From assembly GCA_027603945.1 (NCBI GenBank), contig JADIIU010000034.1, positions 61,926 to 125,925 on the forward strand: a DNA stretch of 64,000 nucleotides, given 5' to 3'. Every line of letters starts with the position of its first letter. Position 1 is the first letter of the stretch. The stretch comes from Terramyces sp. JEL0728. Its lineage: Eukaryota > Chytridiomycota > Chytridiomycetes > Rhizophydiales > Terramycetaceae. The position numbers and the translations under genes are program-made. The notes beneath the pieces are model-generated. The model made no database searches. It saw only the letters and a list, made by a program, of their open reading frames with translations, and had not been told where the DNA came from. This document shows, piece after piece, positions 1 through 62,858 of the stretch.

Positions 1-2040
1 GCGATCGCCGCCTGAATTGAAATACGACGGAGGCTTTAAAGTGGACGAAGATAAAAGGCGAAGTTGGTGGAGCTCGCATAGAAAAACATCGTCGGATGGC
101 GGAGAGATATACAATGAAAAGGCAATCGCAGATGACCAAAAAAATTCACAATTTGTATCGCTGTTTGCTGTTCCTGAAACGGAAAAGCTAGTGCAGAGTA
201 ACTATTGTATAACCTAGCATTCTCTGTGTATTACATATCCCTTATCCCCTATATTGGCAAATTGTACATTTCCAGCAATTACGTATGCTTCAAATCCAGA
301 TTAGTTGGTGCTCGAGCCAAAGTTGTATTACCGTTGAACGAAGTTGTTTCAGTGGAAAAATTAAAGAGATTCACTCCATTAGACTCTATAGTTTTAAAAA
401 CAAAGTCTCGGGATGAAGTAATACGTTTTTAACTAGATTTTATTTGATTTCCACACTACAGAATCCAGAAACGAGTGTTTGAAAATATTATCTGATTTGA
501 TGAAACATGCCAAGACCCAAAAAGTTGATTTAAATTCTCCTGCAGCAGACAGTTTGCTAGAAGTGCTGCCACGCAAGGACGAGCACGTCAAATCCTCTTT
601 AAGTGACGGTATTTATGTTTAATCCCAGAGGATATAACCAATCTTCAACCTTTTGTTACCCCCAAACCACCAGTTCCTGAAAAAATGCACATTACATGTT
701 TAACTATTGGGACCAGAGGAGATGTCCAGCCATACATTGCTTTGTGTAAAGGATTTATGGGTGATGGGCACACTTGCAGAATTGCCACGCACGATGAATA
801 CAGAGAATGGATCGAAGGATTTGGAATTGAATTTTCTTCAGTAAAAGGAGATCCGGCTGAACTAATGCAGCTTTGTGTCGATTATGGAGGCATAACCGTT
901 GGGTTCATTCGCGAAGCCTTGAATAAATTCACTGGATGGATAGATGAATTACTGGATTCGTGTTATGATGCATGCCAAGGAACCGATTTACTGATAGAAT
1001 CTCCCACGGCTTTTGGAGGATTGCATGTATCCGAGAAATTGCAAATTCCATTTTTTTCAGCATTTCCAATGCCGTGGACTAGGACCAGAGCCTATCCACA
1101 TCCATTTGCAGTACCAGACAAACATATGGGCGGAACATACAACTACATGTCTCATGCAATGATTGAGCAAGTGCTATGGAAAGGAATAGTGGGCCAAGTT
1201 AATACATGGAGAAAAAATAAGCTGGACCTTGTTCCGCTGCCATATGCATTAGAAAACAAGAAAATTCCATTCTTGTATTCTTTTTCGCCGTCTGTAGTTC
1301 CTCAGCCAGCTGACTGGCCAGATTGGATTCATACATGTGGATATTGGTTCTTGGATAATCCAGAGCACAATTGGAATCCTCCAGAAAGCTTAACAGAGTT
1401 TCTTAATAGTGGACCACCTCCAGTGTATATTGGGTTTGGCTCCATTATTGTTCAAGATCCAGGTATTCAATATTAATTCAGATGAAATGACGCAAATAGT
1501 CATTGATGCAGTGGTTAAATCTGGAGTTCGTGCAATTCTTTCTAAAGGATGGTCTGCCAGAGGACAGACTGGGCCAGCAGCAGCGATTGAGTACCCGCCA
1601 TCAATATATCCGCTAGATAGAGTTCCTCACGACTGGCTTTTCCCTAAATGTGCCGGAGTTGTTCATCATGGAGGTGCAGGTAAATTATAATTCATGTCAG
1701 GCACTACGGCAGCAGGACTACGAGCAGGAAGACCAACAGTAGTAAAGCCGTTCTTTGGAGATCAATTCTTTTGGGGCGATCGAATACATGATGTAAGTTT
1801 TATTAAGATTAGCTTGGGATTGGTGCTTGCTTGCGTAAATTCACAGTAGACACGTTTGCTAGTGCTCTGACATCAATCACCACCGACGAGACAATGAGGG
1901 AGAAGGCAGCAGAGATTGGAAACAACATCCAGAAAGAAAATGGTGTACGTGCCGCCATAGACTATGTCTATAGAGATTTGGAATTTTCAAAGAAGAGGAT
2001 ACACGATTTGGCAGCTATCCACAAAATGAAGCAAAAATAG
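1..2040 (+). CDS. ATG26: Sterol 3-beta-glucosyltransferase, ATG26/UGT51-like, 5' partial
   Basis: The frame is open to the left edge, so the start and any upstream GRAM/PH part lie outside the window. Six introns are inferred at 198-217, 418-436, 609-628, 1463-1481, 1680-1700 and 1793-1812 (19-21 nt). Removing them leaves 640 codons in frame from nt 2. Domains: a GRAM domain at about residues 70-130 ([25 protein letters not shown]), a short linker, then a GT28/GT1 fold from about residue 208 ([19 protein letters not shown]). The UDP-sugar end shows [20 protein letters not shown] and [18 protein letters not shown], the hallmark of fungal sterol glucosyltransferases. The family glucosylates ergosterol-type sterols at membranes, and in some fungi acts in pexophagy. 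The canonical protein carries GRAM-PH-GRAM before the enzyme; only the last GRAM is visible here. Confidence 0.92.
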
Positions 2041-2260
2041 TAATAATTGGCATGTAATAATAATAAATAATTTGGTATTTTGTAACCAACGAGATCAAAT
2101 CCCATAAGAATTGCCAATCTCGGCACTCAGCAAATTTATCAGCCAAATCTGTCAACTGCCAGCTGTACATCAATCCATCGTGGCTGCTTTAATATTCGAC
2201 GCCCAAGATGTTAGCCGTTCAACCGTTTGACGCCACTTTAGAAGGAAACGAAAGGGAAAA

Positions 2261-3695
2261 ATGCTTTACGAAAATTTCAATATGAATTCCATGGCAGGTA
2301 AAATTTTCCACTAACAAGTAGATGTCGCAAATGTAATCAAGCCAACTAATAAATAGCTTATGATTGTCAAAAAGAAATTAATGGGATACGTCGGTTTCCA
2401 TAATTTGCCAAATCAATATCACCGTAAATCACTAAAGAAGGGATTCCAATTTACTTTGATGGCAGTTGGTAATTTCAAACTAAAAGACAGGTGAAGCAGG
2501 TCTTGGAAAATCAACTCTTATTAACACGCTCTTCAACACTTCTATTTATCCCCTGAAAGATGTAAAGGAACTTTCCAACGACACTCCAAAAACCGTAGAA
2601 ATCCAATCAATCAGCGCAGGCAAGATTTCGTGTAACAATAGATTTGGAAGAAAACGGAGTAAAGTTGAAGCTCACCTGTATTGATACTCCTGGATTTGGA
2701 GATTTTGTGAACAATGAAGACAGCTGGAGACCAATTCTTGAAAACATAGAAGCCCGTTTTGACGCATATTTAGAACAAGAAAACAGAGTCAACAGAAAGA
2801 ATATCGTAGATACACGCGTACATGCATGTTTGTACTTTATTGCACCAACTGGCCACTCTTTAAAGCCAATCGACATTGAATTTATGAAGAGATTAGGAGG
2901 AAGAGTCAACTTGATCCCTGTTATCGCCAAATCCGATACTTTGACAGATGACGAAATCAAGGCGTTCAAAGCCAGAGTACCTTTTTTTGATGGTAGATTC
3001 TTGAAGACTTTGCTTTCCACAACATCCCATACTATCAGCCAGTGTCCCACGACAATGACGATCCAGAAATTGCTCAAGAAAACAAGGAAGTGATTGTAAT
3101 TAGTAGTTGATCAATAGAGCAAGCTTCCATTTGCAGTTGTTGGTTCTGACAGAGAAGTTACTGTTGGAGGAAAGAAAGTCCGAGGTCGTCAATATCCATG
3201 GGGCGTAATTGAAGTTGAAAACGAAGACCATTGCGATTTTGTCAAGCTCCGCCATATGCTTATCCGTTCCCATATGGAAGAATTAAAGGACCACACCAAC
3301 AATGTTTTGTATGAAAAGTACCGTCTCCAAAAGTTGGCTGAAAATGGCGGTGTTACGCAAGAAGCTGACCGTGGTGTAAACAACATGTAATTAGTCGTTA
3401 ATAGCAGTTCACCCCTATCTAAATTCGAACAAGAACGATTAGCCCACGACCAAAAGATGGCAAAGATGGAAGCTGAAATGAAAGCTGTTTTCCAACAAAA
3501 GGTAGCAGAAAAGGAAACCAAATTGAAACAATCCGAAGAAGAAGTAATTTAGCCTAATATTAGTTGTATGCTCGCCACAGAGAAATGAAAGAGCAATTGG
3601 AACGCCAAAGACTTGATTTGGAAGACAAGAGAAAGAGAGTAGAATCTGGTCGCGGTGGGAACACTAAAACTAAAGGCAAGGGCCTCTTTAAATAA
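2261..3695 (+). CDS. Septin GTPase with C-terminal coiled coil
   Basis: Eight ultrashort introns are inferred: 2298-2321, 2333-2356, 2469-2490, 2620-2641 (GC-AG), 2977-2996, 3096-3117, 3387-3407 (or 3387-3404) and 3544-3563. They yield about 419-420 residues, normal for a septin. Visible motifs are the P-loop GEAGLGKST, the switch DTPGFGD, the G4 motif AKSD, and the septin unique element ([17 protein letters not shown], then [18 protein letters not shown]). A Lys/Glu-rich coiled coil follows from about residue 340. Septins form GTP-dependent filaments at cell-cortex rings and, in chytrids, at rhizoid and zoospore structures. Start chosen: the ATG at 2261, which is in frame after two 24-nt introns. 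The first exon is short, so an earlier start is possible. Subgroup (CDC3/CDC12-like) not resolved. Confidence 0.92.
2620..2641 (+). other. Ultrashort GC-AG intron in the septin gene
   Basis: Without removal of this 22-nt segment the septin frame breaks between SISA and [12 protein letters not shown]. Removing it restores the conserved septin string [13 protein letters not shown] exactly. The segment starts GCAAG and ends AATAG, so the donor is GC rather than GT. It is the only non-GT donor among the roughly 72 introns inferred here. Confidence 0.75.
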
Positions 3696-4284: not shown

Positions 4285-4338
4285 GGGACTTTGTAACATC
4301 TGTCAAAGGAGCAAACAGTATCATTTATTTAAGATTCT

Positions 4339-4739: not shown

Positions 4740-5300
<561 letters not shown>

Positions 5301-5416: not shown

Positions 5417-6058
5417 TTACCACCACTTAATTGAAGAATATCTGAGCTTGTAAAATTCGAATGCGCTGTATCCAATCCATAATGCAACTGCAACCCATGA
5501 AGCACCAACAGCAGCATTAATAGTATTAATATTCTTTGGATAATTGACTTTCTTATCCCCAGCATAAAACCCAATACCAAATACAGCACCGCAAGACTTT
5601 CCACTTTTCACAAATTCATTACAAGTTTGAGATACACCGGCTGTAACGAGGATTGCCAAGAACAAGGATAACAGGGAAAACAAAACACCGCCAGCCAAGA
5701 ATCCGTAAACCACTTTTTTTGTAGGCTCTTCTTGTTTGTATATGAAAAAGAATCGGAATCCAGTGAGGACAATTAATGCCAAGCAGCTGAGTAAACCAAA
5801 ACTAGAATTAAAAGATGATTACCTGACTGCTGTGCCGCAAGTGCTAGATGTAGAATCAAATGTGAATCCATCATTTCCATCTGGTTTATGGTAATTCTGT
5901 ACATAGAGTAAACAAATATTTCCCCTCCCGAACTGTAATTGATCAGACACACCACCAACATAAATACCGAGACAAATCTGGATTAATTAATGAGCTACCA
6001 TCAAGGATAAGAACCATCCAGCCAATCCTGCTGCTTCTACTTTGTTTGCAATTTGCAT
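5417..6058 (-). CDS. Four-TM membrane protein, tandem copy A
   Basis: 199 aa after removal of two 21-nt introns (5978-5998, 5802-5822). Four hydrophobic segments: near the N-terminus (GWFLSLMICLGIYVGG), after the first loop (LLSCLALIVLTGFRFFFIY), then GGVLFSLLSLFLAILVTAG, and a last one (SWVAVALWIGYSAFEFY). The extracellular-type loops hold paired cysteines (TSSTCG; SQTCNEF...SCG). The C-terminus ends SSIKWW. The topology is claudin/MARVEL-like but I do not recognise the family. The paralogue at 6177-6793 shares DQLQFG.G.ICLL.V.NYHK, SQTC..F...SCG and the KWW end. It lacks the first intron, so one was gained or lost after duplication. Confidence 0.75.
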
Positions 6059-6176
6059 GTGTTTCAAGTTAAAAAAATTTCTCCTTCAAAATCACCTCGT
6101 CTCCTTTTTGGGGCTGCAATCGAAACCGCAACAGTTTGGAAATAAGGAAATAAGAGAAAATAAAATTTATATAATA

Positions 6177-6793
6177 TTACCACCACTTCAATGAGGATGT
6201 GCGATACTTGAACCATTCGTATCCCGCATAGGATCCCCACAAGACGAAATCTACCCATGCAGCCCCTTCAACTGCTCGGATAGTAGTAAGATTCTTTGGA
6301 TAGATGTTGTCCAATGTATCAACAAAGAATCCTTGAGCTAAAATGCTACCACAAGATCCTGCCTTTTCAAATTGACTGCAAGTCTGTGAAATACCAAAAG
6401 TAACAACAAAGGCCATGATTAGCGAAATAAATGTCAATACTGAAGCGATGATTGCAAAGGCCATAATGACGTTTCTAGATGGTTCTTCTGATCTAACTAA
6501 ATAATACATTCTTCCACAAGCGAGTGCAATCAAAATTAAAATACCGATTGCTCCGATGCTGGATTAATTTAGGGTTACCTTACTGACGCACTGCATGAGG
6601 GAGAGTAAGCGTCGAATAGCCATTGGTCACCCACTTTGTGGTAGTTTTCAACGAACAGCAGACAGATACCACCCAAGCCGAATTGAAGTTGGTCTGCAGC
6701 ACCTCCAGTAAAGATTGCCATTGAGACGAATGTAGCAATCGCCCATGCTCCAATAACCACCTTCTCATTCTTTTCTGACAGTATTTTGTTCAT
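6177..6793 (-). CDS. Four-TM membrane protein, tandem copy B
   Basis: 198 aa, one 20-nt intron (6559-6578). Same four-TM plan and signatures as the gene immediately downstream on the same strand: GGAADQLQFGLGGICLLFVENYHK, GISQTCSQF, YPKNLTT, SSLKWW. The second intron position of copy A (between the first loop and TM2) is kept, while the first is absent. The ATG at 6793 gives a short cytoplasmic N-terminus (MNKILSEKNEKVV) before TM1. Function unknown; a plasma-membrane or secretory-pathway protein is inferred from topology only. Confidence 0.75.
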
Positions 6794-6876: not shown

Positions 6877-8695
6877 TTATTCAATCGAAAAACTCATGTC
6901 TGTATTCAATAGCGAGTCAAAATTCAGTTCGCTAGGATCTGCTTGTGATCTGGCGGTATCAGAAATCCCAGATCCAGGCGTCATTGCGAAAAACGATTCA
7001 GCAATATTTGGAAATTGTAAATCAAATCCAACTGGGTTTTCTACTTTAGGGCGATGGTGAATTAGTGGGTTTTGATCCAACACTTTGAAACGAGAATAAT
7101 CCATTATGACTTGAACTGGATTCATCAATGCTTGAAAGTACTCCAAAGCGTCAAGTAGTACTGGCCCGCGAAGGTACAGCTCAGTTATGATTTTCACACA
7201 TTTGATATGCACAGTTAGCGATTCCTTTATCTGCTTCATTTCATTTGGCGGTAATTCTAGCTTTGTGGCACAAATCAAAGGAACAGCCATGTGAAATACA
7301 TAGATGATAAAAAGTGAAGTGCAGTGATCAAATTTAGAATTGTAGAGCAGGTAGTATTCCAATATTTTTGCATTTTCATTTGCAATTTGTATTGAAAGCG
7401 CGAATGATCTGGATGAAGTTGCTAGGTTTAAATCTTCCAAAATATTATTCACCATCAACGGGCTGAATACAAGAATGCGGACATAATTGTATTGCACAAA
7501 TGAATCCAGCACAAACCACGTTTCCAGCGATGTGCTTGGCAACCCTTTATACAAGAAATTCAAATGCTCGTGGAAAATCGGAGGCAGGTTTGCCCACCAC
7601 AAGTGTAGGGAGCCTTCTAGTGTGGATAGGATATACAATGCGTTGATGTTTGTGTTTTCAAACTGGTACATGTAATTGAACTTTACTGCCTTCCCGAATA
7701 TTCGGAATAGTAAAACCCTGCACGCGTGTAATGATTGTTGCGGTATAGACGGTGTGAACCATTCTTTTGAGGACATTATATTGATTCCCAGATATGCTCT
7801 TCTGTCTTGTATAACTGAATTGTGATTGCTTCCTGGCAAAAATATCCCATTGTCTTCATCCTTTAGTTCGCTCTTGTGTCCATTATGTTGATTTATGTGG
7901 TATATCCACCACCAAACTCTCCTGCAATCTTCTTTTTCTTGCTCGTCGACTGCTAGCAATGGCAGGCATTCTTCCTTGTTGATACCAATATCCTTTGCCA
8001 TCTTGATTGCAATTGAAAAGAAAGACTGTCCTTTGACATCCTTGCCGAGCTCTAAAGTTAACAATAAATACTGAACAATAACACTGCGATATTAACCAGA
8101 CCTACGACGTTGGAGACGCAGGGATTGTCAATGATATCAGGAAACATGGACATGGCTTTTTCCAAATGCGCGTGTGCCAAATCCTTGTTCTCCTTTCCTT
8201 CAACCCTAAAATACCCATTTCCTCTTACTACAAACTTGAGCATTGGCGATAGCTTGACATGCTTTTCAAAAAATTGCCGTGAAATAAAAGTCTGTTCGCT
8301 GATTGATATGATCGCCTTTTCTTCCATCATAGCACCAATAATTTCATTTGAATTTATAATAACCTCCTGTTTGACTAATTCTGGCCGTCCGGGAGATGTT
8401 ACATTCGGAGTTAGGTATGAATTGTCTGAAATGGACCCGAATAAATTCGTTTTTGATGAGCGGAATGCGGATTCCAGTTGATGCAGTCTTGCTTCCAATG
8501 CCTTTTCTCTATCTGTTTGCTTTCTTTTGTGTACTTTTTGGCTCGGAGGAACTGCTCCTTCTTGGTAAACACATTTTATCTTTGCTAGGATGCATGAGCT
8601 GCAGGAAGGTCGTTCGCGGTCGCATTTCTTTGGTTACTATGTCTTACTTGTTTCTTTTTGTAGCAATTCTCACATGTGTTTATTGGTCGTCCCAT
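6877..8695 (-). CDS. Zn(II)2Cys6 transcription factor, array copy 1
   Basis: 592 aa with introns at 8628-8647 and 8052-8071 (20 nt each). The N-terminal binuclear zinc cluster is CENCYKKKQKCDRERPSCSSCILAKIKC (CX2CX6CX6CX2CX6C); the first intron splits it after KKKQ. A Lys-rich linker and short helix (ALEARLHQLESAF) follow, then a fungal-specific transcription factor domain over the rest (CRRVWWWIYHIDQ-type motif, MSSKEWFTPS). It is a nuclear DNA-binding regulator of unknown target. It is the most downstream gene of a four-gene head-to-tail array on this strand. Residue pattern, length and intron positions match its neighbours, so the array arose by tandem duplication. Confidence 0.92.
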
Positions 8696-8752
8696 TTTTA
8701 CTTTGAAAAAAAACACCAACGCCAAAACTTGAGATTCAACTAAATATATTTA

Positions 8753-10562
8753 TTAACTTAATTTTAAAAACTGCAGTATACTTTGATCGTCAATTGTTTG
8801 TGGAGAGTGGTGTGTGTTTGGCGTCGAGTTAAGAAGGGATTCCATATCATCTTGAGAGCCAGGAGTGCTGGTTTCCGCTGTAAAGTACTTTGCAGTGGGA
8901 AAGGTAGAGTACTTGTGATGCGACAGCGGATTGCTGTCGAAAAGAACAAATTTGTAAAAGTCTTGCACAACAAGAACTGGATTTGGAAGCGATAGCAGGT
9001 ATTCCAATAGTTCCAGTATAACTGGGCCTCGCCTTTGGTTTTGAATCAGGGTCCTTATTGCACTCATATGCATTTGAATGTTTTTCTGGAGCTCTAACGG
9101 GTCTTCGCCTGGAATTTCCATCTTCAAAGCGCAGATCATTGGCACAGTTGATTGGAAAATGTATGTCATAAAATATGGAGAACAGTAGTTGAAGGTTGGA
9201 TTGACTGTTAGGTAAAATGCAATCATTGCGGAAATTTGTTTACAAGAAACAAGCATATTGGCAAACGCAGGGCATTTAGTAGCTGAGGTATAGTCTTCAA
9301 CAATATTGTTGTAGCAAATAGGGGTGGAAATCATGATTTTCGTAAAGTAGAATTGGACGATTGTGTCGAGAGCAAACCAAGTTGATTTGGGATCTACAAT
9401 AGAAATAACAGGGTTGCATAATACTTCCAAATGCATGGTGAATTCCCTTGGCAAGCTGAGATACCACAAAGTGAGAGACCCTTCAAGCGTCGACATCAAA
9501 TACAAGTAATCTACAGAATTGTTTTCATATCTATACAAGTAATTGTACTTTAAAGCCTTCCCAAACAGCCTGGTCAAAAGAACTTTATAGGCATAAACTG
9601 GGAGCCCCGGTAAATTTGGAGTGAACCAATCCTCTGATGACATTACACTGATCCCCAACAACGCAGCCTTTCCTCTATCATCCATCGCGGCAGTCCCTGG
9701 AAGATATATTCCATGATCACTTTCTCGAATAAAGCTGAGATTATTGTACACTAGATTCTGATCAATGTGATACAGCCACCACCACACTTTTCTTAAATCC
9801 TCAATCTCGTTTTCATCGCTTGAAATAAGCATGATGGATTCCTCTCTGTTTATTCCAAGATCCTTTGCCAATCTAACTGTGAATCCAAAGTATGCAAGTC
9901 CTTCGTTGATTTTATCCATTTCTACAGTTAAAAGCAATTACTAAAATGAATGACCGCTAAAAGCAATGTTGCTAATAAGTTGGCTGGACATGGAAACGAA
10001 AGGGACTGTGCAAATTGCCCTACTGCTTTCTCCAGCCATACTAGCGTTTTCGCTTCATAATGAAGGCCGTCATGATGGAAATAGTAAGCTGCTCTTGCTG
10101 CAAATGTATACATAACCGATGAATCCAGCAACTTTGAAAAAAATTCTTTGGATATGTGTGTCATGTTGGACATTTGTTCAATTACATGCTCTCTGACCAT
10201 TGCGAGCTCCTCCTCGCACTCGGTAAAGCCAGTGCACAATGGGTCCTGCAAGTTGTGTGCAGCTTGTACTCCATCTGAAAATAAGGAAAAGTCTGGGACA
10301 AATCCAAATAAATTGGACTTTGATGCCTTGAAAGCAGACTCCAACTTTATCAATTTGTCAACCATTTCATTCTCCTTTTCTTTTGATAAACTCTGTCGTC
10401 GTTTAGATACTGATTTTCCTGCGTTCGGCGGATACACACAGTCGATTTGTGAAATCAGGCATCCCTGGCATGACGGCCTCCCGCGATCACATCTATATTA
10501 CTTTGCAGGTACTTTTGTTTCTTTTTCTGGCATCCAAAGCAAGTATTGTTTACTTTACCCAT
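8753..10562 (-). CDS. Zn(II)2Cys6 transcription factor, array copy 2
   Basis: 589 aa. Introns at 10493-10512 (inside the zinc cluster, after KKKQK) and 9922-9941 (just before MDKINEGLAYF), both 20 nt. The zinc cluster is CFGCQKKKQKCDRGRPSCQGCLISQIDC. The fungal_trans-like domain shows DLRKVWWWLYHIDQ and VMSSEDWFTPNLPG. The closest relatives in the window are the distant copies at 21.1 and 59.5 kb: they share the CxGCQKKKQK or CYSCQKKKQK cluster start, DKxNxG and the YYFHHD helix. A scaffold of regulators of this type usually controls metabolism or secretion. The target genes cannot be told from here. Confidence 0.92.
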
Positions 10563-10686: not shown

Positions 10687-12593
10687 TTAGAACTGAGGAG
10701 CTGCCATGTCCATCTTCATTTCCATAGGTGTTACAAAGTTGAACTCTGATCCAGGAGTTAAACTGTTGTTGTAGTCGGAAGGTGTAGAATTTGTTACTCC
10801 GTTGTATTCCGACGGCGAGGATCCACTGAGTGCTTGTGTCTCTGATCCAGAATTGAAGAACTCTTCAAAAGTATCAAATTTCAAATCTGGCTGAGGAAAA
10901 GTCAAGTTGAACGTAGCAGCGGTTTCAGAGGATTGCTGCAGATTTCTGAGCGCGCACGGGTTCTGGTCAAGTATCTTGAACTTTGAAAAGTCAAGTATTA
11001 ACTGAATTGGATCAGTTAGCGACATCAGGTAGTCAAAAGTATCCAAAATAATCGGCTTGTTCTTCTTGCATGAAATAAAGTTGCGAATTAATTGAGAAGT
11101 CAACTCGATAATTTGCCGTATTTCTGCCTTGTCAGTTTCTGGGATGTCCATTAGCACAGCAGCCATCAACGGGATTGAACAGTGGAAGACTAGCACTACC
11201 AAGAATACATTGTTCAACAGAAAGTCTGGCTTAACTTTCGACAGCAAGTTGAGGATAACATGATTTTCTTTGGCGATTTTCAACACTTGGAGGAACGATC
11301 GTGAGGTAATTGCGGCTTGTGAATCTTCAAGTATATTGTTGAACATTAGTGGCAAATGCACAGTTGTTCTAGAGTGGTTGTACTGAATACAGGTTTCCAA
11401 CACAAATAGCGTGTCTGGATTATCAATTGGTAATCCGTTATATAGATAATTGAGATGCTCCATAAATACAGGAGGCAAGTTGCACCACCACAGCTGTAAC
11501 GACCCTTCTAGAGTTGACAAAACATACAGAGTGTTGATTGTGTTATTTTCGAATTGAAATAGGTAGTTGAATTGTATGACTTTACCAAATATACGGGTCA
11601 AGAGTACCTTGCACGCATGTAAACTTTGGTCTGGCAGACCAGGGGTGAACCAGTCCTTGGATGACATTATGTGAACACCGAGGTACGCCTTTCTGTCTTG
11701 CTTGGTAGCATTCAGCATACTGCCTGGCAAGAATAAACCATTGTCCTCGTCCTTCAAGATGGACTTGCTTTTGTAGCGCATAAACTGATCTAGCGAGTAC
11801 AACCACCACCAAACCTTACGAACGTCCTCCTTTTCAGCATCGTTTTCAACCAAGCAATTCAAAGTCTCTTCCTTGTTCATTCCAATATCTCTAGCCATGT
11901 TGACAGCAAAAGTATAGTATGCGTGGCCCTGGACCTGCTTTTCAACTTCTAACATTAAAAACAGTTACTCATATGAAGCATAGCCATGCACAGGATCGAA
12001 ATAACGCTGAGGACACTAGGGCTACCAATGGCTTCAGAGAAATAGGTTACTGCTCTTTCCAAACACATTTTGGCAGACTCGATCGAATCTTTGTGATAAT
12101 ATCCATAGCCCCTAAGCGCATACTTGAATAAATCAGACTTTCCTTTTAATTTCCCCATATAATCTGCTGAAATAAAAGAGTTTTTCGAGAGAAAGGTGAT
12201 CGCTGTGTCCTCTGCTACCTCGCCTTCCTTTTCCCCAAATTCAGAAATAAACATATTGGAATTCATTCCTTCAACTAACAAATCCGACCCATTAGCCTGT
12301 GCTGTGGGAATGAAATCAATGTTAAATGGAACAAAGCCGGAGTTGTTTCCCTGGGTTGCTAAAAAGGCTGCCTCCAACTGATTCAGGCGCTCTTCTAGAG
12401 CAAGCTCTCTAGCAGTTACTGCCTTTTTCTTGTGTATTTTCGGCGGGATCGCACCTTCAGGATAAACACAAGGGATTTTGCTTGTCAGACATCCCGCACA
12501 GCTGGGTCTTTGGCCTATATTTAGATTATAATTACGATCGCACTTTTGCTTTTTTCTAGTGCAAGCATTACAGGTATTGTTTATTCTGCCCAT
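10687..12593 (-). CDS. Zn(II)2Cys6 transcription factor, array copy 3
   Basis: 621 aa, the longest copy, with an extra Ser/Thr/Asn-rich C-terminal tail (GSETQALSGSSPSEYNG..., SLTPGSEFNFVTP). Introns at 12515-12535 (21 nt, within the zinc cluster) and 11949-11968 (20 nt). After splicing the zinc cluster reads CNACTRKKQKCDRQRPSCAGCLTSKIPC. Its 21-nt intron has no in-frame stop, so retention would only insert seven residues between the third and fourth cysteines. Start taken at the ATG at 12593 (MGRINNTC), matching the other copies. It sits between copies 2 and 4 with the same orientation and a domain match throughout. Confidence 0.92.
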
Positions 12594-12809
12594 GATTGCC
12601 AAGTCTTGTCAAATATTTTATATAAAAAAGTGGTGAGTCGACGGTGGCAAAAATTCGTCTAAACCAAGGGTGGAGTGGGAACTGACGAGATGAAACATGA
12701 ATGAAAAATTGGCAACTTAATAGAAACATCAAAGACAACATAAATGGCCAGCTTTTCAAGGACGATTGTGAAAGCCAATGTGTAAAATCCAGTGTGCGTT
12801 TATTAGCAA

Positions 12810-16779: not shown

Positions 16780-16861
16780 TAGAATAAAACTCAGTTGTAC
16801 ATGCGTTTATTTAGACTTTAATCCGCTCCCACAAATCTCGTGTCCGAAAAACTTGCCAGCA

Positions 16862-46132: not shown

Positions 46133-46370
46133 CTGTAGGTCTAAAGGAGATATTGTGATCTATTAATAAATCATTTACCAATCAAACCATGTTTCATTTT
46201 GCTTATTTTAACTGGTTAGAGATGATGAGGTAATTTGCCAAATTTGCTGTTTCCAATCTCCCAGTGGATATCCCAAGATAGCAAGAAGGCTGTTCCCTCA
46301 ACATCCAATCCATGTAGCTAAGGCTCGCTTGATGCCACGTCGAAACTGAAAGCCACAGTTTATCAAAAAT

Positions 46371-50062: not shown

Positions 50063-50514
50063 TTATTGTGTGTAATATGGAGTATACTGTAGATTTGCAA
50101 TAGTAAAGCAGTCATCTCTTTCACTTTTCAGCATCTCCATCAGTCGGATATATTCTAGTTCTCTCTTTTGCCATTCTACTCTTTCTTTCTCCAAGATTGC
50201 CAATCGAATATCCCTTTCAAATACCTTGTTTTCCAGCTGGATGATCAAATCTTTATGCTCGGCTAATTGGGTAGCTTTCCTTGCCCTGCATCTTCTCGCC
50301 GCTTCATTTTGCTATATTAGTGATCAATTACTTTTTGTCGTTTGCGGATTATATTTCCATCGGCTATTGATGCAGGTGCCGGCGGTGTTGCATCTACGGT
50401 CCAATCGCTGGATACAGAATAGCCAGGATCGGTCGGATGTTCGCTAGTAGGTGTTGGGTATGCGTCTTGCATCCCGAGCCAATCATCAAGGTTTACTCTC
50501 GCACTAATTTGCAT
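50063..50514 (-). CDS. bZIP transcription factor, array copy B
   Basis: 143 aa, one 20-nt intron (50312-50331) at the same point in the basic region as copies A and C (KRQK then QNEAARRCRARK). N-terminus MQIS...NLDDWLGMQDAYPTPTSE; zipper segment IRLAILEKERVEWQKRE. Very short for a bZIP protein, with almost no activation region. Nearly matches copy C in motif order (MQIS, AYPTPTSE, ERVEWQKRE). Confidence 0.88.
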
Positions 50515-50898
50515 AAATTTTTCAAAAATCAATTGATGATTTTGCAAAGTCAAGTACCAGAAAAAGCACAAAAATTACAACTACACCCAAAGATGAAAAG
50601 TAAAAGATGGGATTAAGGGAATATATTTAATCCTACTCAGTTTATTAGTATTTGTTGGTTGCTTGGTTCTATTGCTTCACTCAATCAAACAATAAACAAA
50701 CAACACAGACTGAAACACAAGCAGCATATGTAGCTGTCTCTTTTGCTGTTAATATCGATTTCCGATCCCCTGGGAATCTACTTGTGCAGTCTGTACCTTT
50801 CGTCTTTCGTTCCCTTTTTCATCCTCCAATTTTCTTTTTCAATCCCAAGGCTGATCTTTGGACTGCAAGTGCATTTACAACAAAATAATAAAATCTCT
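50515..50898 (-). other. Intergenic region, no gene seen
   Basis: About 380 bp. Two overlapping plus-strand frames with no ATG-supported or conserved content were disregarded. Confidence 0.4.
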
Positions 50899-51361
50899 TT
50901 ATTGAGAGCTACATTGGGTGCTGCGAAGATTCGCAAGGGTAAAACAATCATCTCGTTCTTTCTTTAGCATTTCTATCTGTCTCGTGTATTCCTGTTCCCT
51001 CTTTTGCCACTCTACTCGTTCTTTTTCTATAATTGCCAGACGAATATCTTTTTCAAATAGCTGATTTTGCAGTTTCGTCACCAAATCTTTGTATTCGGAT
51101 AACTCGTTTGCTTTCTTGGCCCTGCACCTTCTCGCTGCTTCGTTTTGCTAAATTAATAAATCTTACTTTTTGTCTCTTGCGAACTATCACTGCTTCTTTG
51201 TTTAGAAACTCGGTTGATATAGGCGTGGGGTATTTTGAATCTATCGGGTTGTGCGGAGGATCAGTATATTTTGCTTCACTAGGAAATTCACTGGTAGGCG
51301 TTGGATATGCATTTTGCAATCCAAACCATTCGTCAACATTTAACGCAGTAGAAATTTGCAT
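50899..51361 (-). CDS. bZIP transcription factor, array copy C
   Basis: 147 aa, one 19-nt intron (51148-51166) between KRQK and QNEAARRCRAKK. N-terminus MQISTALNVDEWFGLQNAYPTPTSE; zipper IRLAIIEKERVEWQKREQEYTRQIEML. Sister of copy B, immediately upstream on the same strand. Both end with a Cys/Ala/Asn-rich tail (DDCF..ANL). Confidence 0.88.
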
Positions 51362-51623
51362 AATTTTTCTAGCGTCAGTTGATTGTTTTAAAGATATGAA
51401 ATCACCCTGAAAAATAGGAAAATTTCACAAAACCGAAAAGAGAAGCTGGGTGGAATGAGGGGGAAGTCGTCGCCATCGACTCTTTGCGAAAATTATTGAT
51501 TTCGCATCCACCGTTGCTGTTCTCCTGCACTCTCAATTTTCCATTATTTCCCTGTGGGGCTGAGATTGGGAACAATGACCAAACAATAAGGTGATTAGAT
51601 GTATATATTCAAAAATAAAAAAT

Positions 51624-52197
51624 TTAGTTATGCTTCATTCTCATGAGAATCAAGTGGGATTCGTCCAACTGGAATTTGAGCGATTGCACTCTTTCCTGTA
51701 ATTCTTTTTCCTTCACCAACCACGCCGAACGTTCTTTTTCCAACACAGCGAGACGAACAGACATTTCAAACATCTCGTCTTCAAATCTTTTTGCTTTCTC
51801 TTGGCACTCTTGTAATTGATTCAATTTCTTTTGACGACATCTAAGATGAGTTTTTATGGTACCTTTTTGCAGCATCGTTTTGTCTTTGGCGTTTCTTCAT
51901 CAGAGCTTCGTCGACTTCTACCTCGGAATAATCCCTTTTTAAAGACTGTGTGCTGGTCGGAGAAGGGTAATCAACTGCTGCAACTGCAGGGATTGAAGTA
52001 GCTAGAGATGCCAGTGGTAACTGTGGGAATAACTGTTGATATGACTCATCTTCAAATAAAAGTGGAGGAGTAAGTGTATCGAGTTCTGGAGACATCTTCA
52101 AGTCAGTCTTTAGTGATTCGAACCACACATCGAAATCATTTGCGTTTACGTTTAGAGTTGATGTTGTTGGCGCTTGCAAGTTTTTGATATGACACAT
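51624..52197 (-). CDS. bZIP transcription factor, array copy D
   Basis: 183 aa, one 22-nt intron (51841-51862). Starts MCHIKNLQAP with DFDVWFESLKTDLK, like copy A. Basic region KKRQRQNDAAKRCRQKKLNQL; zipper VRLAVLEKERSAWLVKEKEL. Its intron splits the Arg codon before CRQKK (phase 2), about seven residues downstream of the phase-0 site used by copies A-C. It also lacks the N-terminal intron of copy A. Confidence 0.88.
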
Positions 52198-52685: not shown

Positions 52686-55600
52686 ATGGGAGACAAATCG
52701 AATAACCCTGTGGGGTTTTTTAGTAATATGATATCCTCAGTTATAAAGCAAGATGTCCCACAGCCAAAACTGGCCCCGCACATGCCAAATCTCAGCAGCA
52801 ACAATTCAGGAGATTTTTTCATCCGAATGAGTATGGATATGTTAAATGGGTCCAAAGAAATCAGACGGAATGAAACGTTTAGAAAAGCAATTACAGTCGC
52901 ATTAGGTAATTTGTAGCTCATAAGAAACGCTGGATCATCCCACAACCGCAGCCAACCCCTTATCTATATTTAAACCATTTCAATTGGCGTGTCAATCAAA
53001 AGACCCCGAAGTAAACATTATCGCAATCGATTGTCTAGGCAAACTATTCACGTACAATTACTGGAAATTTGCAGCCGAAGTAAGGATTGAAAAACAGGAA
53101 ACGAAAAAGAAGGAAGACGAAGAGGATAATGACGGTGATAACGATGGAACTAGCGAGATGATTACGTTTGTTATTGACACTATTTGTGATACCTTTGTTG
53201 GGGAAGGTACAGATGACAAAGTCCAACTACAAATTATCAAAGTAAATATAACTAAGATAGGCGCTTCAGGCTGCTTTGACAAATAGCGATGCCTCGTTCA
53301 GTCTACACGGCGCTACGCTATTAAAAGCAATCAGAACTACTTATAACATCTTTTTACTGTCAAAGTCCAATGATGTTCAAACAATCGCTCAAGGAACGGT
53401 CACTCAGATGGTCCAAAACGTTTTGAATAGAATTCCAAACCCATTATACGCAAAAAAAGGGTCGTCGCCAATGTTGAATCGAAGCAATACTAAATTGGTG
53501 AGCAAAGCGACTATTTCTGATCGATCAAGAAATCCGTCCAGAGAAGTTTCAAAGGATTTGCCTGCTTTACCTAGAAATGAGCCAACAGAATCATCGCCAA
53601 CTGAAGCTGTTTTGCCACATGAAAGTCCTACTCTCGACAAGGAATTGTCAGATAAAGCCTACGATAGAGAATTTAAAGATGCCTTCAAAGTATTTAGGAC
53701 GCTGTGCATTCTTAGCGCCAAGGCCATCCCGGTCCCTGAAGGGTAAATACTTGCTAATCGAGAACAATTGAATTGCGATCTCAACCTATGCGTTCAAAGT
53801 TATTGGCTCTTTATTTAATTTCCTCAATCTTACAATCTCACTTATACCTGTTCAAAATGAAAGCAAAACCGCTGTATGCTCTTGTCAAAGACAACCAAGT
53901 ACCTGTAGAAAACTTCAAATTCATTGACGCAATTAAAGAATTACTTATTGTCACACTAAGCCGAAATGCAACGAGTATGGTTCCGCCAGTATTTGATGTC
54001 TGTATGGAATTGTTTGGCAATCTGTGGGCTGGGTTAAGACAGTTTTTGAAAAAGGAAATGAACATTTTCTTTACTGAAATTATCATTCCGATATTGGAAG
54101 CAAGAAAAAACATTGTGTGGTACCAGCGACACTCTCTTTTCAAACGCCTTGGGCAACTATTCGCAGATCCTCAATTGGACGGCGGTAAAATGCTGGTGGA
54201 GATTTATTTAAATTACGACTGTGATATTGATAGTACCGCAAAGGAAAATATTTGGGAAAGAATGATGAATGCTATTGGCAAAGTTACTTCGCAGCATGTA
54301 GATGCCTCTGCTGTATCTGCTCCGCTGATCCAATCCTTTGTCAATCCCTCGCACGGAATGCCCCAGCTAACCACAGCAAACTTAGTATCGCTTTCAAGGG
54401 AACAAGTAAAAGAATTAATTTCTGTCAACGGAGATGCGCTTGAGTTGAGAAAACAAGGTGTTAAATTGATGGGCTATGGCATTTTAAAACCATTGTATGA
54501 TTGGTGTTCTGACCGCGCAGAAATGGCAAAACTTGAAGCTGAAACTACTAAAGAAGAAAAGAAATCCGAGCCGGACAATGAAAAATCTTTAGGTCTTATT
54601 GCCGAAGATGATTCCCACCTTCCAGCAGACGACCCGACCCAATTTGGTAATCAGAAATTGCGAAAACAGAATATTATTGAAGGAATTAAAAAGTTCAATG
54701 TCAAGCCAAAGAAAGGCGTTCAATTCTTGCTTGATAATAATTGTATTAGGTCCAGAACTCCTAGACACATTGCGCTGTTCCTTGCATCTGCTGAAGGAAT
54801 AAACAAGACCCAGCTTGGAGATTTCTTGGGAGAGGGGTAAATATTTCTAATTTCAGCGAAGAAGAAAATATTGCCATCATGCATGCATTTGTCGAGCAAT
54901 TTGAATTTATTGGAATGGCGTTTGTTGAAGCGCTTCGGCAGTTCCTTCAAAGTTTCAGACTGCCAGGAGAAGCGCAAAAAATCGATCGATTCATGTTGAA
55001 GTTTGCCGAAATATATGTTAAAGACAATCCAAGTAGCTTTACCAGTGCTGATACTGCCTATGTGCTAGCATACTCTGTTATCATGCTAAATACCGATCAG
55101 CATAATACGCAAGTCAAACGTAAAATGTCCAAACACGATTTCTTGAAAAACAATAGAGGAATTGATGGCGGGAAAGATTTGCCAGAGGAAGTTTTATCTA
55201 TCGTGTTTGATGAAATTGTCAACAACGAAATTATCATGAAGGACGAGCAGAAAGCAGTCCCAAATCCAAAGGTGCCAGTAGACGCAAAAACCACTCTTGC
55301 TAACACTAGTGCAGATATGGCTTTGAAAACCGAAGCCAAAATCAGTAATATTCTCAGAAGGGGAGTATCAAAGAGACAAGCCCCAGACGAAAAAGGACAG
55401 CACTTTATTGCAGCCAGCCATCATGCTCACGTAAAGCCAATGTTTGAAATTATTTGGATGTCGGTATTATCTGGTCTTTCAACGCCATTGCAGGAAAGCG
55501 AAGACGTTGAAACTATTATGAGTGCATTAGAAGGAGTAAAGAACGCAACTAGAATAGCCTGTTTATTTGATTTGGATTTGGAAAAGCAAACCTTGCTTTC

Positions 55601-58115
55601 AACGCTCAGTAAATTTACTTTGTTGAACAATCTGCAAGAAATGAAAGCAAAGAATTTTGAAGCAATCAAAACACTGCTCGACATCACATTAATGGAAGGT
55701 GATCACTTGGATTCATCGTGGAAAGATGTTGTCAGCTGTATTTCGAATCTGGAAAAACTGCAAATTGTTGCTGGCTTGACAACAGATGATCCTAGCAGGT
55801 CAAGACACAATACTGATATGAAAAGAAAGGAAACTCAACTAAAACCGTTGGGAAAAGGGAAATTCCTGGAAGAGGCTGCAGCTGCGGCTGGTTCGCAATC
55901 CATGACTCTTACAGTCGATCGTATTTTTACATCCAGTTCCAAGTTATCAGGGACAGCGATTGTGCATTTCGTCAGAGCACTTTGCGAGTCTTCCTGGGAT
56001 GAGATATCCTCTTCAAATAACAACAAGGAGCAAATCAGAATGTATTGTTTGCAGAGATTAGTTGAGATCAGCTACTACAATATGAAACGTATTCGTGTTG
56101 AATGGTCCAATATTTGGGCGATTCTAGGTCCTCATTTTGATCAAGTCGGCTGTTATCCAAACACCAATGTTGCTTTCTTTGCTCTGGATAAATTAAGACA
56201 GCTAGCCATGAAGTTTTTGGAAATTGAAGAACTCCCAAATTTCAAATTCCAAAAAGAATTCTTACGACCATTCGAAGAAATTGTCAAAAACAATACAGAC
56301 CCAAAAATTAAAGATATGTGTTTGGTTTGTGTTCAGCAAATTATTCAGGTTAAAGGAAAGAGCTTGAAAAGTGGCTGGAAAACACTCTTTGGTACTATAC
56401 TTCGAGTTGGGAGGGAGACTAATGGTATATTTCGCTAATTCAGAACAAGTTGCAAATCTTGGGTTTGACTTGTTAAAAGCCGTATTCAAGAATAATTATG
56501 AAACAGTTGTTCAAAATGGAAGCTTGCCGGATCTCGTAGCATGCGCTGCTGAGTACTGCAAAAACAAAAAGTATCCAAAACTAAAGTAAGAACGAATTAA
56601 CACAGTTCCCAATCGTTGGATATTTTCAAGCAAATCATTGGAAAGGTTTCTGAAACCGCAATCAAAAAACCAACCCGACAAATGAGTTTGGTTGCGAGTC
56701 CAAGTGCTGCAAATATTCTAAACGACACTCCAGTAGCGCCAGTGCCGACGATTGGAACACTAAAACGCCAAACCACCCATCTGATTCCCCCAGAAGAAGA
56801 CATTTGCATACGATACTGGATGCCTGTGTTATTTGGGTTGCACGATTTAATCATGACGTGCGACTTGGAAGTTAGAACAAAGTACTCTTTATTTAACTTG
56901 CAGGGCACTGCAGTTCCTATTCGACACGCTAAAAAGCCATGGGGAAGTATTCACCACCTCGTTCTGGGAAATTTTAACAAAGGGTGTTTTATTTCCCATC
57001 TTTGATGATATGAAGCAAACTTCGGTTAATACGAGCATACTTAATTCCAAATTTGCAAACAAAGAAGAGTTGAACGTATGGCTATCCACAACCCTAATCC
57101 AAGCACTTCGACAATTTGTTGAATTGTTCACTCACTACTATTCCACCTTGGGCTTCATGCTTGACGGAATGCTTGGATTATTGAAAATATGTATATTGCA
57201 TGAAAACGAGGCATTGTCGAGAATCGGAGCTACTTGTATCCAGCAACTGGTAGAACATAACAACAGCTGCTTTGGAGAAAAAGATTGGGCTTTAGTTTGC
57301 AAAACTTTCCAGGAGCTATTTGATGAAACTGCGCCAACTTTCCTGTTCTTCAACTACACTGAAGAGATTAAAGACGAAAAGTTTGCATTTTTGGACAGGC
57401 CATTAGGTCCAGCTCCAGAAAAGAAAGAATTCCAGAAACAACTGGCCAGGTGTGTACTACATTTGCATGTTGTACAAACACTGCAAGATGTGCTAGCAAC
57501 AGGGCCGGATGACATGGTTTACAAACAAGTACCAAGTAATACTCTTATACTATTACTGGATTGTTTTAGGTCAAGCTTCCATCTTGCGCATGTCTTCAAT
57601 GAAACTATAGAGCTAAGGCAGGCGCTTTTCAAGAAGGGGTACATGAAAAACCTTCCAAACTTGCTCAAACAAGAAACACTATGTGTAAACGCGTACTTGA
57701 TGTTTTTGATCAAAATATACACTGATCCTTCTGAAAGCAGACAGGAAATCAAAAATTCCACGCAAGACAAATTTATCTCGTAACTTTTACTTAAATTAGA
57801 TTATGTTTAGAAATACTAAAGACTTTTAATACACTTGAAGAAGGAAACCAAAGAAATCTGACATCATGGCGGCCAGTAATTATAATGATTTTGAATGCGC
57901 TTGTAAAATTTGACGACGGCCAGTTTAAACAGCATGCACAGATATTCTATACGCCAGTTATAAACTTGCTGATGCACGATTTAAATCAAGAAATTAGGAT
58001 GGCAATCCATGGAGTGATGCTGAGAATAGGAAAGATATTTGGGTTGGTAAATGAAAATGATATATTACAAATACCAGCTGCGGTGCAGCCTGAACAGCCA
58101 GAAAATATAGAATAA
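52686..58115 (+). CDS. SEC7: Large ARF guanine-nucleotide exchange factor, SEC7/BIG family
   Basis: 1756 aa after eight introns (52906-52924, 53242-53260, 53743-53762, 54837-54856, 56425-56443, 56586-56605, 56882-56903, 57780-57799; 19-22 nt). Order: N-terminal DCB/HUS helical domains (FQLACQSKDPEV...DCLGKLFTYNYW; WYQRHSLFKRLGQLFADPQ), the Sec7 catalytic domain at about 650-825, then HDS repeats. The Sec7 domain spans KKGVQFLLDNN, FLGEGEEENIAIMHAFVEQF (Glu finger region), LRQFLQSFRLPGEAQKIDRFM and YSVIMLNTDQHN. It activates ARF at the trans-Golgi for vesicle budding. The ATG at 52686 is the first in frame with the conserved part. Confidence 0.95.
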
Positions 58116-59517: not shown

Positions 59518-61166
59518 ATGGGTAAAATCAACAATACTTGCTACAGCTGCCAAAAAAAGAAACAAAAGTAATTCCCGCTAAAGTAGGTGTGATCGAATCC
59601 GGCCTTCCTGCGCCGGTTGTTTGGTTTCAAGAAAGGACTGTTTATATCCGCCAAATGCGGAACCATATCCAAGGTATTCAGCTCCAGTAGCAAAAAAGTT
59701 CCAAATGAATGATTCCGAGTTGGCCTACAGGTTGTTGAAACTTGGTTCAGACATGAAATCTCCATGTGTGGACTTTTATTCAACTGATACTTTGCCTTCC
59801 CAATCTTCAGAAACTGTATGCGAAGGGGAATACGATTCTACAGAATTGAATCTGGGACAGGAATATATGTTGGAATACCTTTCGGGAATGACGAGCATTT
59901 CAAAAGATTTTTTGATAAAGCAGCTACAGACTTCCACAGTCTTTAATTATGGATATAATGCAGCCTTCTATTTCCATCATGATTTTCCAGATTTTGAATC
60001 GAAAACCAATCTTTGGCTGGACAAGACAATAACAATCTTTCCAAAATCGTTTTCAAGCCCAACCCCTGCAACTGTGCTAGCTTCCCTAATCTTGGGCGGC
60101 CTTCATTTTAGTAATTGATTTTTAAAAAGAAATGGACAAGGTTAACGATGGGAGGATTTATCTTGGATTCGCTATTGGAATGGCCAGAGATATCGGGATA
60201 AATGTAGAAGAATCGATTGAAAAATTGGCTGGTGATGAAAATGAAGCTGAAGATTTGCGGAGAATATGGTGGTGGTTGTATCATATCGACAGAAATCTTG
60301 CCTACACTAACCAGGAATTTATCAAGGACAGCGATCTAGGGCTATTTCCTGTCGAACTAGCCAAGATTGGAGGCAAGAAAGCGCAATTATCGATCAGCGT
60401 AATGAGCTCAGTGCATTGGTATACTCCATCGATTTCCGGAGTTTCTTTTCGTGGACATAGGGTATTATTAAACAGGATGTACGGGAAAACGCTTCATTAC
60501 AACTATTTATTCAGGAATAATGCAAAGAATTTGGATCTCCTTCTGGTTTCGTCGACTCTGGAAGATTCCCTTGCAATGTGGTATGCAAACTTGCCCAAAG
60601 ATGTTATTGACGCAATTCAAGTTATTTACAATCCAGCACTGCCAATTGCAGACCACAAATATACTTGTACTGCGTTGGATGCAATTTTGCAGTATCAACT
60701 GACCAAAATAATGGTCAATATGCCTGTTGCGTACCAGAGTATCCTTAATAATACCGGATCAAAATGCTATGTGTTTGGAAATACCATTTCATCGTGTAAA
60801 GAACTATCTGTTATTGTATCATTCTACCTGTCCGAAAATCCAACTTTTCATTACACGCTGCCCCTGACATTTAATTTCATTTTCCAATCAATTATACCCC
60901 TAGTCGTTGCCATTAAATTGGGCCTATCAAAGACTGATGATCAAATACAATCTGCTTTCGATATTCTCGCTAAAGCAGTTGCTGTACTATCTCAGATGCA
61001 GCAAAGAGGTTCTTATGTCTTGAATTTGTTGAACCACATGCTTTCGCTGCCAACCGCATTGAATGTAATGAACTGCTACTACAAGAATACTGAATATAGC
61101 GGAAACCCACTGTCGCTTTTTATTCCGAGCAGATTGAATTCGGATGAGTCCATAGCTTTGGAATAA
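59518..61166 (+). CDS. Zn(II)2Cys6 transcription factor, dispersed copy 6
   Basis: 536 aa, introns at 59568-59586 and 60111-60129 (19 nt each), at the same two sites as copies 2 and 5. The zinc cluster is CYSCQKKKQKCDRIRPSCAGCLVSRKDC. The regulatory domain shows DLRRIWWWLYHIDRN and VMSSVHWYTPSISG, where the usual WFTP is WYTP. It is divergent from the dioxygenase gene over a 300-bp shared promoter that contains the palindrome. Same length as copy 5 and close to it in sequence pattern. Confidence 0.92.
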
Positions 61167-61784: not shown

Positions 61785-62531
61785 TTATTGTGAATCAGAA
61801 ATTGAAATTTTCACTTCTTCTATATCAACTGGATTGAAATTTTCTTGATTGGATTCCTCGGATTGCAAATTACTCGTCTCTTGCAGATCTTCCGCAATGG
61901 CTTTAATAGGCGACTCGACTCCAGCAACATCCTTTTCCGATGAAAAATCATTGCTGAATTCCGTTTGAGAATACATTTCATTTCTTTCGGGGATTTGGGT
62001 AGATTTTGAATTGACTTCAAATTGATGATCTGAACTTTCACCATCATTCGAAACCTCTTGGTTTTCAATTAATAGTTCTTTTTCATTTGATTCATCATTC
62101 AAGGTGTTTTCTTGTTCTTTGACTGTAGATTCCGAATCAATCGGTACTGCGATATCAGATTCTGAATCAGACTGTGCTTCGGTATCACAAGGTTTGACAA
62201 CGATCTGATGTTCGTCTTCAGTATCAATTACAAGTTCTAGACTGTGATCAGGTTGCTTATCACACACATTGATCTTTTCTGTTTGTACCGCTACAGAGAT
62301 ATTCGCTGCGCTTTGGTTGTCAATACTAGCCAAAGTACTGTCTGAATAGTTGATCCTATTGTAGTGTTCACCGCCGACTCCTGGTCTGATTTCCAAAATA
62401 ATATATTCCTCCTCGGGCTCTTCTTCCTTTGGATAGATACAATCTTTGACATAATAGTACGAAACAATCGCTATTGTTGGTAGTATTAATATCCCAAACA
62501 GTCCAACAAATACATAAATTCCGATATCCAT
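61785..62531 (-). CDS. Single-TM protein with long acidic tail
   Basis: 248 aa from the ATG at 62531 (MDIGIYVF). One TM (YVFVGLFGILILPTIAIVSYYYV) near the N-terminus is followed by KDCIYP and a long Glu/Ser/Asp/Asn-rich tail (for example EEEPEEEY, SESDIAVPIDSES). Almost certainly a type III membrane protein with a disordered cytosolic domain. No family recognised. A truncated frameshifted copy lies just downstream and a PPxY-tail gene lies just upstream on the same strand. Confidence 0.6.
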   Translation of the reverse strand: MDIGIYVFVGLFGILILPTIAIVSYYYVKDCIYPKEEEPEEEYIILEIRPGVGGEHYNRINYSDSTLASIDNQSAANISVAVQTEKINVCDKQPDHSLELVIDTEDEHQIVVKPCDTEAQSDSESDIAVPIDSESTVKEQENTLNDESNEKELLIENQEVSNDGESSDHQFEVNSKSTQIPERNEMYSQTEFSNDFSSEKDVAGVESPIKAIAEDLQETSNLQSEESNQENFNPVDIEEVKISISDSQ

Positions 62532-62622
62532 TTGAAACTTTCTTGGAGAAAAATTTGGTGGCACTGGTTTTGAAAACAAGACAAGTTGAAACACGAATAA
62601 AATCTACGCAGTTTTTATTAGT

Positions 62623-62858
62623 TTATGGTGTGTATGTTGGCGGCAAATCTATTGTGACTTTGTAATCTTGTGTTAAATAAACGGGCAGCGGCTCTTCTTT
62701 GCACGTCCGATCTGGTAGCACAACAATACTCCTGAGCTCATTTCTAGTGTTGCAGTGCTTTCGAATATACAAAACAATAAACCAGACCAGTACGATAATC
62801 GATATTACAATCTATTGTTAAAAAGTTAAACTTCTATTGATGTGAAATTTTGGACCAT
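62623..62858 (-). CDS. Single-TM protein with terminal PPxY (family member 3)
   Basis: 71 aa after a 20-nt intron (62812-62831). Exon 1 encodes only MVQNFTSIE (with an NFT sequon). Exon 2 starts at the TM (IVISIIVLVWFIVLYI), followed by basic RKH, the tail motif LPVY, and the C-terminus LPPTYTP at the stop. Intron placement just before the TM, the first proline-tyrosine motif and the terminal PPxY are shared with the genes at 24603 and 24882, nearly 38 kb away. Confidence 0.65.

Follow-up and report, generated by a model that had tools for sequence, protein, structure and literature searches.

Evidence that U2-type introns of 19-23 nt occur genome-wide in the chytrid Terramyces sp. JEL0728

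The window analyzed here is a stretch of 64,000 nt from Terramyces sp. JEL0728 (Terramycetaceae, Rhizophydiales, Chytridiomycota; GCA_027603945.1), corresponding to positions 61926-125925 of contig 34 (JADIIU010000034.1), whose end it reaches, in a genome of 15.0 Mb and 231 contigs. Terramyces is a genus of soil saprotrophs and is not known as a reduced parasite. Genes in the window, among them those encoding a SEC7-type Arf-GEF and a septin, are interrupted by segments of about 20 nt with GT-AG or GC-AG ends. We regard it as nearly certain that the segments are spliceosomal introns of the U2 type and that compression to 19-23 nt is genome-wide; they are among the shortest known for any nucleus and far below the usual fungal length. 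The evidence consists of genomic DNA, deposited proteins and profile matches, from which splicing is deduced. A preliminary description of the window had reported about 72 such introns in 30 or more genes. Their presence and size were recovered, with a smaller count from a gene finder that under-calls introns and fuses some neighbouring genes: 60 introns across 19 of the 23 gene models scoring at least 15, or 64 across all 29 models. The two window genes whose introns were settled junction by junction are the following:

52728..58115, + strand: SEC7/BIG-type Arf-GEF, 1742 aa when spliced, 8 introns, based on homology
52906-52924 (19 nt), 53242-53260 (19), 53743-53762 (20), 54837-54856 (20), 56425-56443 (19), 56586-56605 (20), 56882-56903 (22), 57780-57799 (20), + strand: SEC7 introns
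2360..3695, + strand: septin gene, based on homology and Pfam Septin (373.9 bits)
2469-2490 (22 nt), 2620-2641 (22, GC-AG), 2977-2996 (20), 3096-3117 (22), 3387-3407 (21), 3544-3563 (20), + strand: septin introns

All 14 introns of these genes (8 in SEC7 and 6 in the septin) have 19-22 nt. The 8 SEC7 junctions are gap-free in comparison with Boothiomyces, Globomyces, Batrachochytrium and Spizellomyces (89-48% identity), and the alignment shows a single gap, 7 residues after the first junction, where Spizellomyces alone carries an insertion. The deposited SEC7 protein of Terramyces sp. JEL0728 is 99% identical to ours over its length, with no mismatch residue by residue; it has 14 extra N-terminal residues and is 11 residues short at the fifth intron. 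Since 7 of the 8 introns were spliced in it by annotation software, ultrashort introns already sit in public records, even if undescribed. For the septin, the best match listed comes from Boothiomyces, of the same family (94%), and at the second intron both our first model and the deposited Boothiomyces protein deviate. Reading 2620-2641 as a 22-nt GC-AG intron restores ISA-DLEENG, and all 6 junctions are then gap-free in the four relatives shown. These two deposited proteins, SEC7 and the Boothiomyces septin, each err at one junction and so illustrate an annotation pitfall: a larger minimum intron, or a rule allowing no GC-AG introns, would break these genes.

Homology was also used outside these two genes. 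Compared with solved relatives, all 4 junctions of a malate dehydrogenase model and all 4 of a CDK model are gap-free, the latter with one two-residue gap about 9 residues from its second junction, while relatives support 3 of the 4 junctions of U2AF65. Eight conserved-looking genes were picked from 14 intron-rich models, and 36 of their 42 introns fall within Pfam matches. The Sec23 model starts mid-domain; the missing front was found upstream in one reading frame, with two in-frame breaks of about 20 nt (by eye) that the gene finder passed over as introns. Independently of the gene finder, adjacent pieces were paired among all 143 kinase-domain matches. Ten of the 15 tightly adjacent pairs change frame, with 19, 20, 20, 20, 20, 20, 20, 22, 23 and 23 extra nt, so no frame-changing break exceeds 23 nt; the other 5 keep the frame with 39-201 extra nt, as do all 7 looser pairs (36-105 extra nt). 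By hand arithmetic, the Prp18 pieces imply an intron of 20 nt and the U2AF pieces one of 19 nt. A second GC-AG intron probably lies in the SF1 gene (L033). This and the septin one have 21-22 nt and GCAAG donors, and both were missed by GT-only models. An SF1 intron called at 15 nt was rejected, since a 21-nt GC-AG reading, obtained by reading the sequence and not computed separately, fits the frame better.

To the window we added 20 stretches of 10 kb on other contigs (264 kb of 15 Mb in total) as the gene-finder sample. In an unbiased run, with a flat intron penalty, a coding model trained on unspliced open reading frames and lengths of 10-120 nt equally allowed, GT..AG segments pile up at 19-21 nt with neither length nor motif preference. 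As a control, GT..AG was swapped for nine other dinucleotide pairs (TG-GA, CT-AC, GA-AG, GT-GA, TG-AG, GC-AG, AT-AC, GT-TG and CT-AG, of which GC-AG is not a pure decoy), and the peak was absent: segments of 18-24 nt number 74 for GT..AG and 9, 10, 10, 10, 10, 15, 15, 15 and 16 (mean 12.2) for the others. Above 24 nt, the GT..AG counts are at or below the decoy level. Although these calls are blind to motifs, 46 of the 74 have a YTRAY whose end lies 4-5 nt upstream of the AG (background over all AGs, 2.6%), which supports the branch-like motif described earlier for the window. At the same spacing the motif also exceeds background among the segments of 10-17 nt (5 of 16); of the 63 segments longer than 80 nt, none has it. 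A first flat-penalty run on the window alone called many long introns, which by the decoy control are only at noise level. With learned donor and branch models and uniform lengths of 10-150 nt, 150 of 199 introns fall at 18-24 nt, and the other 49 are scattered, 47 of them at 34-148 nt.

A tuned model (short-length prior, 15-30 nt range, branch motif included in the score) gave 265 introns in 116 gene models, 260 of them of 19-23 nt with a mode of 20 (18 nt, 1; 19 nt, 70; 20 nt, 119; 21 nt, 44; 22 nt, 19; 23 nt, 8; 28 nt, 2; 29 nt, 2). The mode is narrow and lies near the 15-21 nt typical of ultrashort introns. At least one intron is present in 92 of the 116 genes, with a mean of 2.3 per gene. 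The genome-wide spread and the size range that had been claimed from the window are supported on other contigs as well. The sole 18-nt call of the window (8740-8757) belongs to a model that fuses two genes, and it is likely to be spurious. The sole 28-nt call of the window is really the 22-nt GC-AG intron of the septin. Extrapolation to 15 Mb, ignoring duplicated contigs, gives roughly 15,000 introns in the genome.

Three duplicate pairs of near-identical gene copies (C199/C111, C18 and C44), either alleles or recent copies, were compared. Twelve indels were listed and one was dropped as an end effect; of the other 11, none falls within exons (10,749 aligned bases), while introns (423 bases) have 2 and the remaining sequence (3,565 bases) has 9. 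Zero exon indels would have a chance of 6e-7 under an even spread, but selection against exon frameshifts alone would give the same result. More telling are the two intron indels, each of 1 nt and both in the C199/C111 pair: introns of 21 nt in one copy have 20 nt in the other, yet the encoded proteins are the same. Substitutions distinguish the four proteins of the C18 pair, whose introns all keep their length; the C44 pair shows no difference in either protein or in its single intron.

Contigs C199 and C111 share 98.9% identity across 3.1 kb, and kinase matches with near-equal scores recur about 29-62 kb apart within the single contigs C18, C3, C26, C42 and C44. This pattern could come from large duplications or from both haplotypes being present in one assembly.

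The anatomy of the introns was taken from the tuned model. Position +3 is A in 233 of 265 introns. Position +5, where fungi usually have G, shows G in only 41 and T in 119. Among the 254 motif-bearing introns, the putative branch A is at position 14-15 in 223, and in 234 its distance from the 3' end is 6-7 nt with the A itself included. Donor, branch point and acceptor had been pictured as almost touching, a wording that these distances qualify. Only 4-5 nt lie between the branch site and the intron end, too few to hold a classical polypyrimidine tract there; U2AF65 may instead bind the T-rich stretch that precedes the branch site. An in-frame stop is present in 40 of 45 introns of length 3n, many of these stops being supplied by the branch motif itself, so that the count is no proof of selection.

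Searches for the splicing machinery took in the small nuclear RNAs (snRNAs) U1, U2, U5 and U6 and the proteins U1-70K, SF1, U2AF65, Slu7 and Prp18. The U2 snRNA is canonical (140 bits) and carries GUAGUA, to which the branch site is complementary, and the U5 snRNA is also canonical (86 bits). In SF1 the helix-hairpin, the KH domain and the zinc knuckles are all present. The U2AF_lg profile matched in two pieces, reaching position 507 of 510. Two RRMs are recognised by Pfam in the spliced U2AF65 model, whose start is RS-like and many of whose best matches are named U2AF. Slu7 and Prp18 are both present in the genome. With these four proteins found, no loss of step-two or branch-recognition factors was seen, nor did the check for altered U2, SF1 and U2AF components proposed in the preliminary description reveal any change; U2AF35 was not searched. 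In yeast, Slu7 and Prp18 are dispensable when the branch-to-acceptor distance is short. Their retention is therefore of interest, also because both are given as N/A in the Stentor table in the accessible part of PMC9505925.

The layout is a 5' GTA, followed by a T-rich stretch of about 7 nt and by YTRAY (mostly TTAAY or CTAAY) as the short putative branch site with its A at 14-15, leaving 4-5 nt that end in YAG; a GC-AG subclass exists beside the GT-AG introns. As a mechanism we suggest that U2 would pair with the branch site, and both splice sites may be recognised together across the intron, in one footprint. The lariat would have a ring of 14-15 nt and a tail of 5-6 nt. So few nucleotides follow the branch site that the spliceosome would probably take the first suitable AG as the 3' splice site. 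The small size could result from a deletion bias that acted until a steric floor was reached. We consider it probable that Terramyces, although not known as a reduced parasite, has shortened practically all of its introns, which number in the thousands, to about 20 nt and has nevertheless kept conventional factors for branch recognition and for the second step. A near-complete fungal spliceosome would then handle such rings and tails, and ultrashort introns would need neither genome nor spliceosome reduction.

The segments could instead stay in the RNA and be skipped in translation, like the bypassing elements of some yeast mitochondria, or be removed from the DNA like the internal eliminated sequences of ciliates. 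Their removal must be exact and their lengths are uniform, as such processes would have it, but the GT/GC..AG ends, together with a YTRAY that is complementary to U2 and keeps a constant distance, are hallmarks of the spliceosome, both U2 and U5 are intact, and the in-frame stops in introns of length 3n speak against retention in the message; we regard both processes as extremely improbable. Sequencing or assembly errors, or gene-finder artefacts, could also mimic short introns, and some calls are indeed artefacts, namely the 18-nt call in a fused model, the misplaced 28-nt call and the '15-nt' SF1 call. The decoy dinucleotides, however, give no 18-24 nt peak, the junctions match relatives and the introns are kept in duplicate gene copies, and we regard this explanation as equally improbable. 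The decoy-controlled peak and the junctions gap-free against relatives point to the segments being introns, as they had initially been described.

It is less unlikely, although still doubtful, that a minority of longer introns was missed beside a main class of ultrashort ones. The tests span 264 kb and selected genes, and longer introns might lie in frame or in untranslated regions. Bins above 24 nt nevertheless do not exceed the decoys, frame-changing kinase breaks stop at 23 nt and, by eye, the missing Sec23 front is bridged by in-frame gaps of about the same size as the introns. Several points do weigh against uniformly ultrashort U2-type introns. YTRAY is also found in 13 of 73 segments of 25-80 nt in the unbiased run, above the 2.6% background; real acceptors could have been paired here with the wrong donor, or some of the segments could be longer introns. 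Three calls of 28-29 nt are left in stretches outside the window, and longer in-frame introns without stops would be compatible with the tests used. By hand arithmetic, the Slu7 and SF1 pieces each leave 34 nt extra, which in SF1 correspond to a 19-nt intron plus alignment slack. The first U2AF65 intron, near the gene start, is without support from relatives, and the motif statistics of the tuned model are biased, the motif being part of its score.

Other such points concern the machinery. The main U2AF65 piece scores 251.7 bits in an unspliced search, below the curated cut-off of 310.3. U6, normally the most conserved snRNA, was not found in the genome by Rfam or by its core pattern, the latter giving one match with 3 mismatches, as many as its control. 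Two weak Rfam matches to U6 (L030/L031) were rejected, being located in a coding exon and an intron of a protein gene. The genome searches found no U1 snRNA, which does not imply its absence, and gave nothing for U1-70K, a result that is uninformative and likewise implies no absence. Since U2 and U5 are canonical, an assembly gap or divergence seems likelier than loss of U1 and U6.

In the accessible part of PMC10245619, intron sizes are 18-21 nt in nucleomorphs, 15-16 nt in heterotrich ciliates and 16-17 nt in mikrocytids, which agrees with the comparison to nucleomorphs and ciliates made initially. The nucleomorph of the chlorarachniophyte Bigelowiella natans resembles Terramyces in its many introns of nearly the same narrow size range (18-21 nt), but it is what remains of an endosymbiont's nucleus, and its roughly 300 genes contain over 800 introns (same source and extent), whereas the Terramyces introns belong to a 15 Mb fungal nuclear genome. 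Nucleomorph introns of 18-20 nt are removed efficiently and those of 21-27 nt much less so (PMC5014332, part of the text). Stentor coeruleus (15-16 nt) shares uniform tiny introns, GU..AG ends and a fixed branch A, which is nucleotide 10 or 11 of the intron and leaves a tail of 5 nt (PMC9505925, as far as accessible); in comparison, the introns of Terramyces are 4-5 nt longer, its branch motif is clearer, and Slu7 and Prp18 were found. The mikrocytids Mikrocytos mackini and Paramikrocytos canceri (16-17 nt) also have uniform ultrashort introns, but M. mackini is a parasite with a reduced spliceosome and 224 introns (PMC10245619, same part), against the extrapolated total for Terramyces. Trichomonas introns go down to 23 nt (PMC12316389, in the part available).

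Among fungi, Cryptococcus neoformans is likewise intron-rich, but its introns average 63 nt, a mean termed relatively short in a survey that states 644 fungal genomes and whose ancestral-state table includes two chytrids (PMC8476143, accessible portion). For short-intron fungi such as Cryptococcus, 'ultrashort' has been used for introns below 60 nt, with a 20-40 nt bin (PMC11913375, accessible portion). Our literature search, in which most subscription papers were out of reach, found no report of 20-nt introns in any fungus, and as far as found the Terramyces introns are the first fungal case. The trait may be common to all Terramycetaceae. If true, Fungi join the few lineages with ultrashort introns, through a strain that bears a collection-style number. 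The retained factors would then allow tests of the minimum intron length with which a largely conventional spliceosome can cope, and of the reason for keeping Slu7 and Prp18 at a branch-to-acceptor distance of 6-7 nt.

The other genes of the window and their introns are:

500..2040, + strand: GT28/UGT-type glycosyltransferase gene; introns 609-628, 1463-1481, 1680-1700, 1793-1812 (19-21 nt)
5417..6793, - strand: two similar models, membrane-protein-like by eye; introns 5978-5998, 5802-5822, 6559-6578 (20-21 nt)
6877..10562, - strand: two Zn2Cys6-like factor genes (by eye), fused in the model; introns 10493-10512, 9922-9941, 8628-8647, 8052-8071 (20 nt)
10687..14632, - strand: two Zn2Cys6 transcription-factor genes; introns 12515-12535, 11949-11968, 14030-14049, 13257-13277 (20-21 nt)
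15658..20128, + strand: DHHC palmitoyltransferase gene, fused in the model with a WD40/TBC-domain gene; introns 16349-16367, 16646-16665, 16776-16794, 17196-17218, 17667-17687, 18109-18127, 18486-18505, 19172-19191, 19282-19301 (19-23 nt)
21135..22786, - strand: Zn2Cys6-like factor gene (by eye); introns 22716-22736, 22184-22203
26710..28208, + strand: MBOAT gene of the sterol/diacylglycerol acyltransferase type (Pfam MBOAT 93.6 bits, residues 163-460); introns 26722-26742, 26788-26807, 27240-27259, 27749-27768, 28141-28160 (20-21 nt)
28267..29737, - strand: dsRNA-binding-motif protein gene; introns 29301-29320, 29121-29140 (20 nt)
30009..32030, + strand: gene with two ABC ATPase domains; intron 30339-30359 (21 nt)
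38459..39713, - strand: glycosyltransferase family 90 gene; introns 39411-39431, 39221-39240, 38685-38704 (20-21 nt)
42891..44374, - strand: 487-aa gene model; intron 44084-44103 (20 nt)
45053..47254, + strand: DnaJ gene (introns 45495-45513, 45982-46001) and E2 ubiquitin-conjugating enzyme gene (intron 46510-46529)
48889..52197, - strand: four similar small basic-zipper-like models (by eye), clustered; introns 49385-49404, 49132-49151, with three more in models scoring below 15, namely 50312-50331, 51148-51166, 51841-51862 (all five 19-22 nt)
59518..61166, + strand: Zn2Cys6-like factor gene (by eye); introns 59568-59586, 60111-60129 (19 nt)

In the fused model 15658..20128, hand arithmetic puts the first two introns within the DHHC match (residues 208-325), the second near its end, and some of the others may be fusion artefacts. 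Within 10687..14632, Pfam Zn_clus and Fungal_trans match the model 10687-12593 and the second gene was assigned by likeness. Six copies of this Zn2Cys6-like factor family are seen by eye in the window (6877-14632, 21135-22786 and 59518-61166), one of them checked with Pfam. An intronless gene at 4749-5300 (+ strand) was labelled from its sequence as a ubiquitin-S27a-type fusion.

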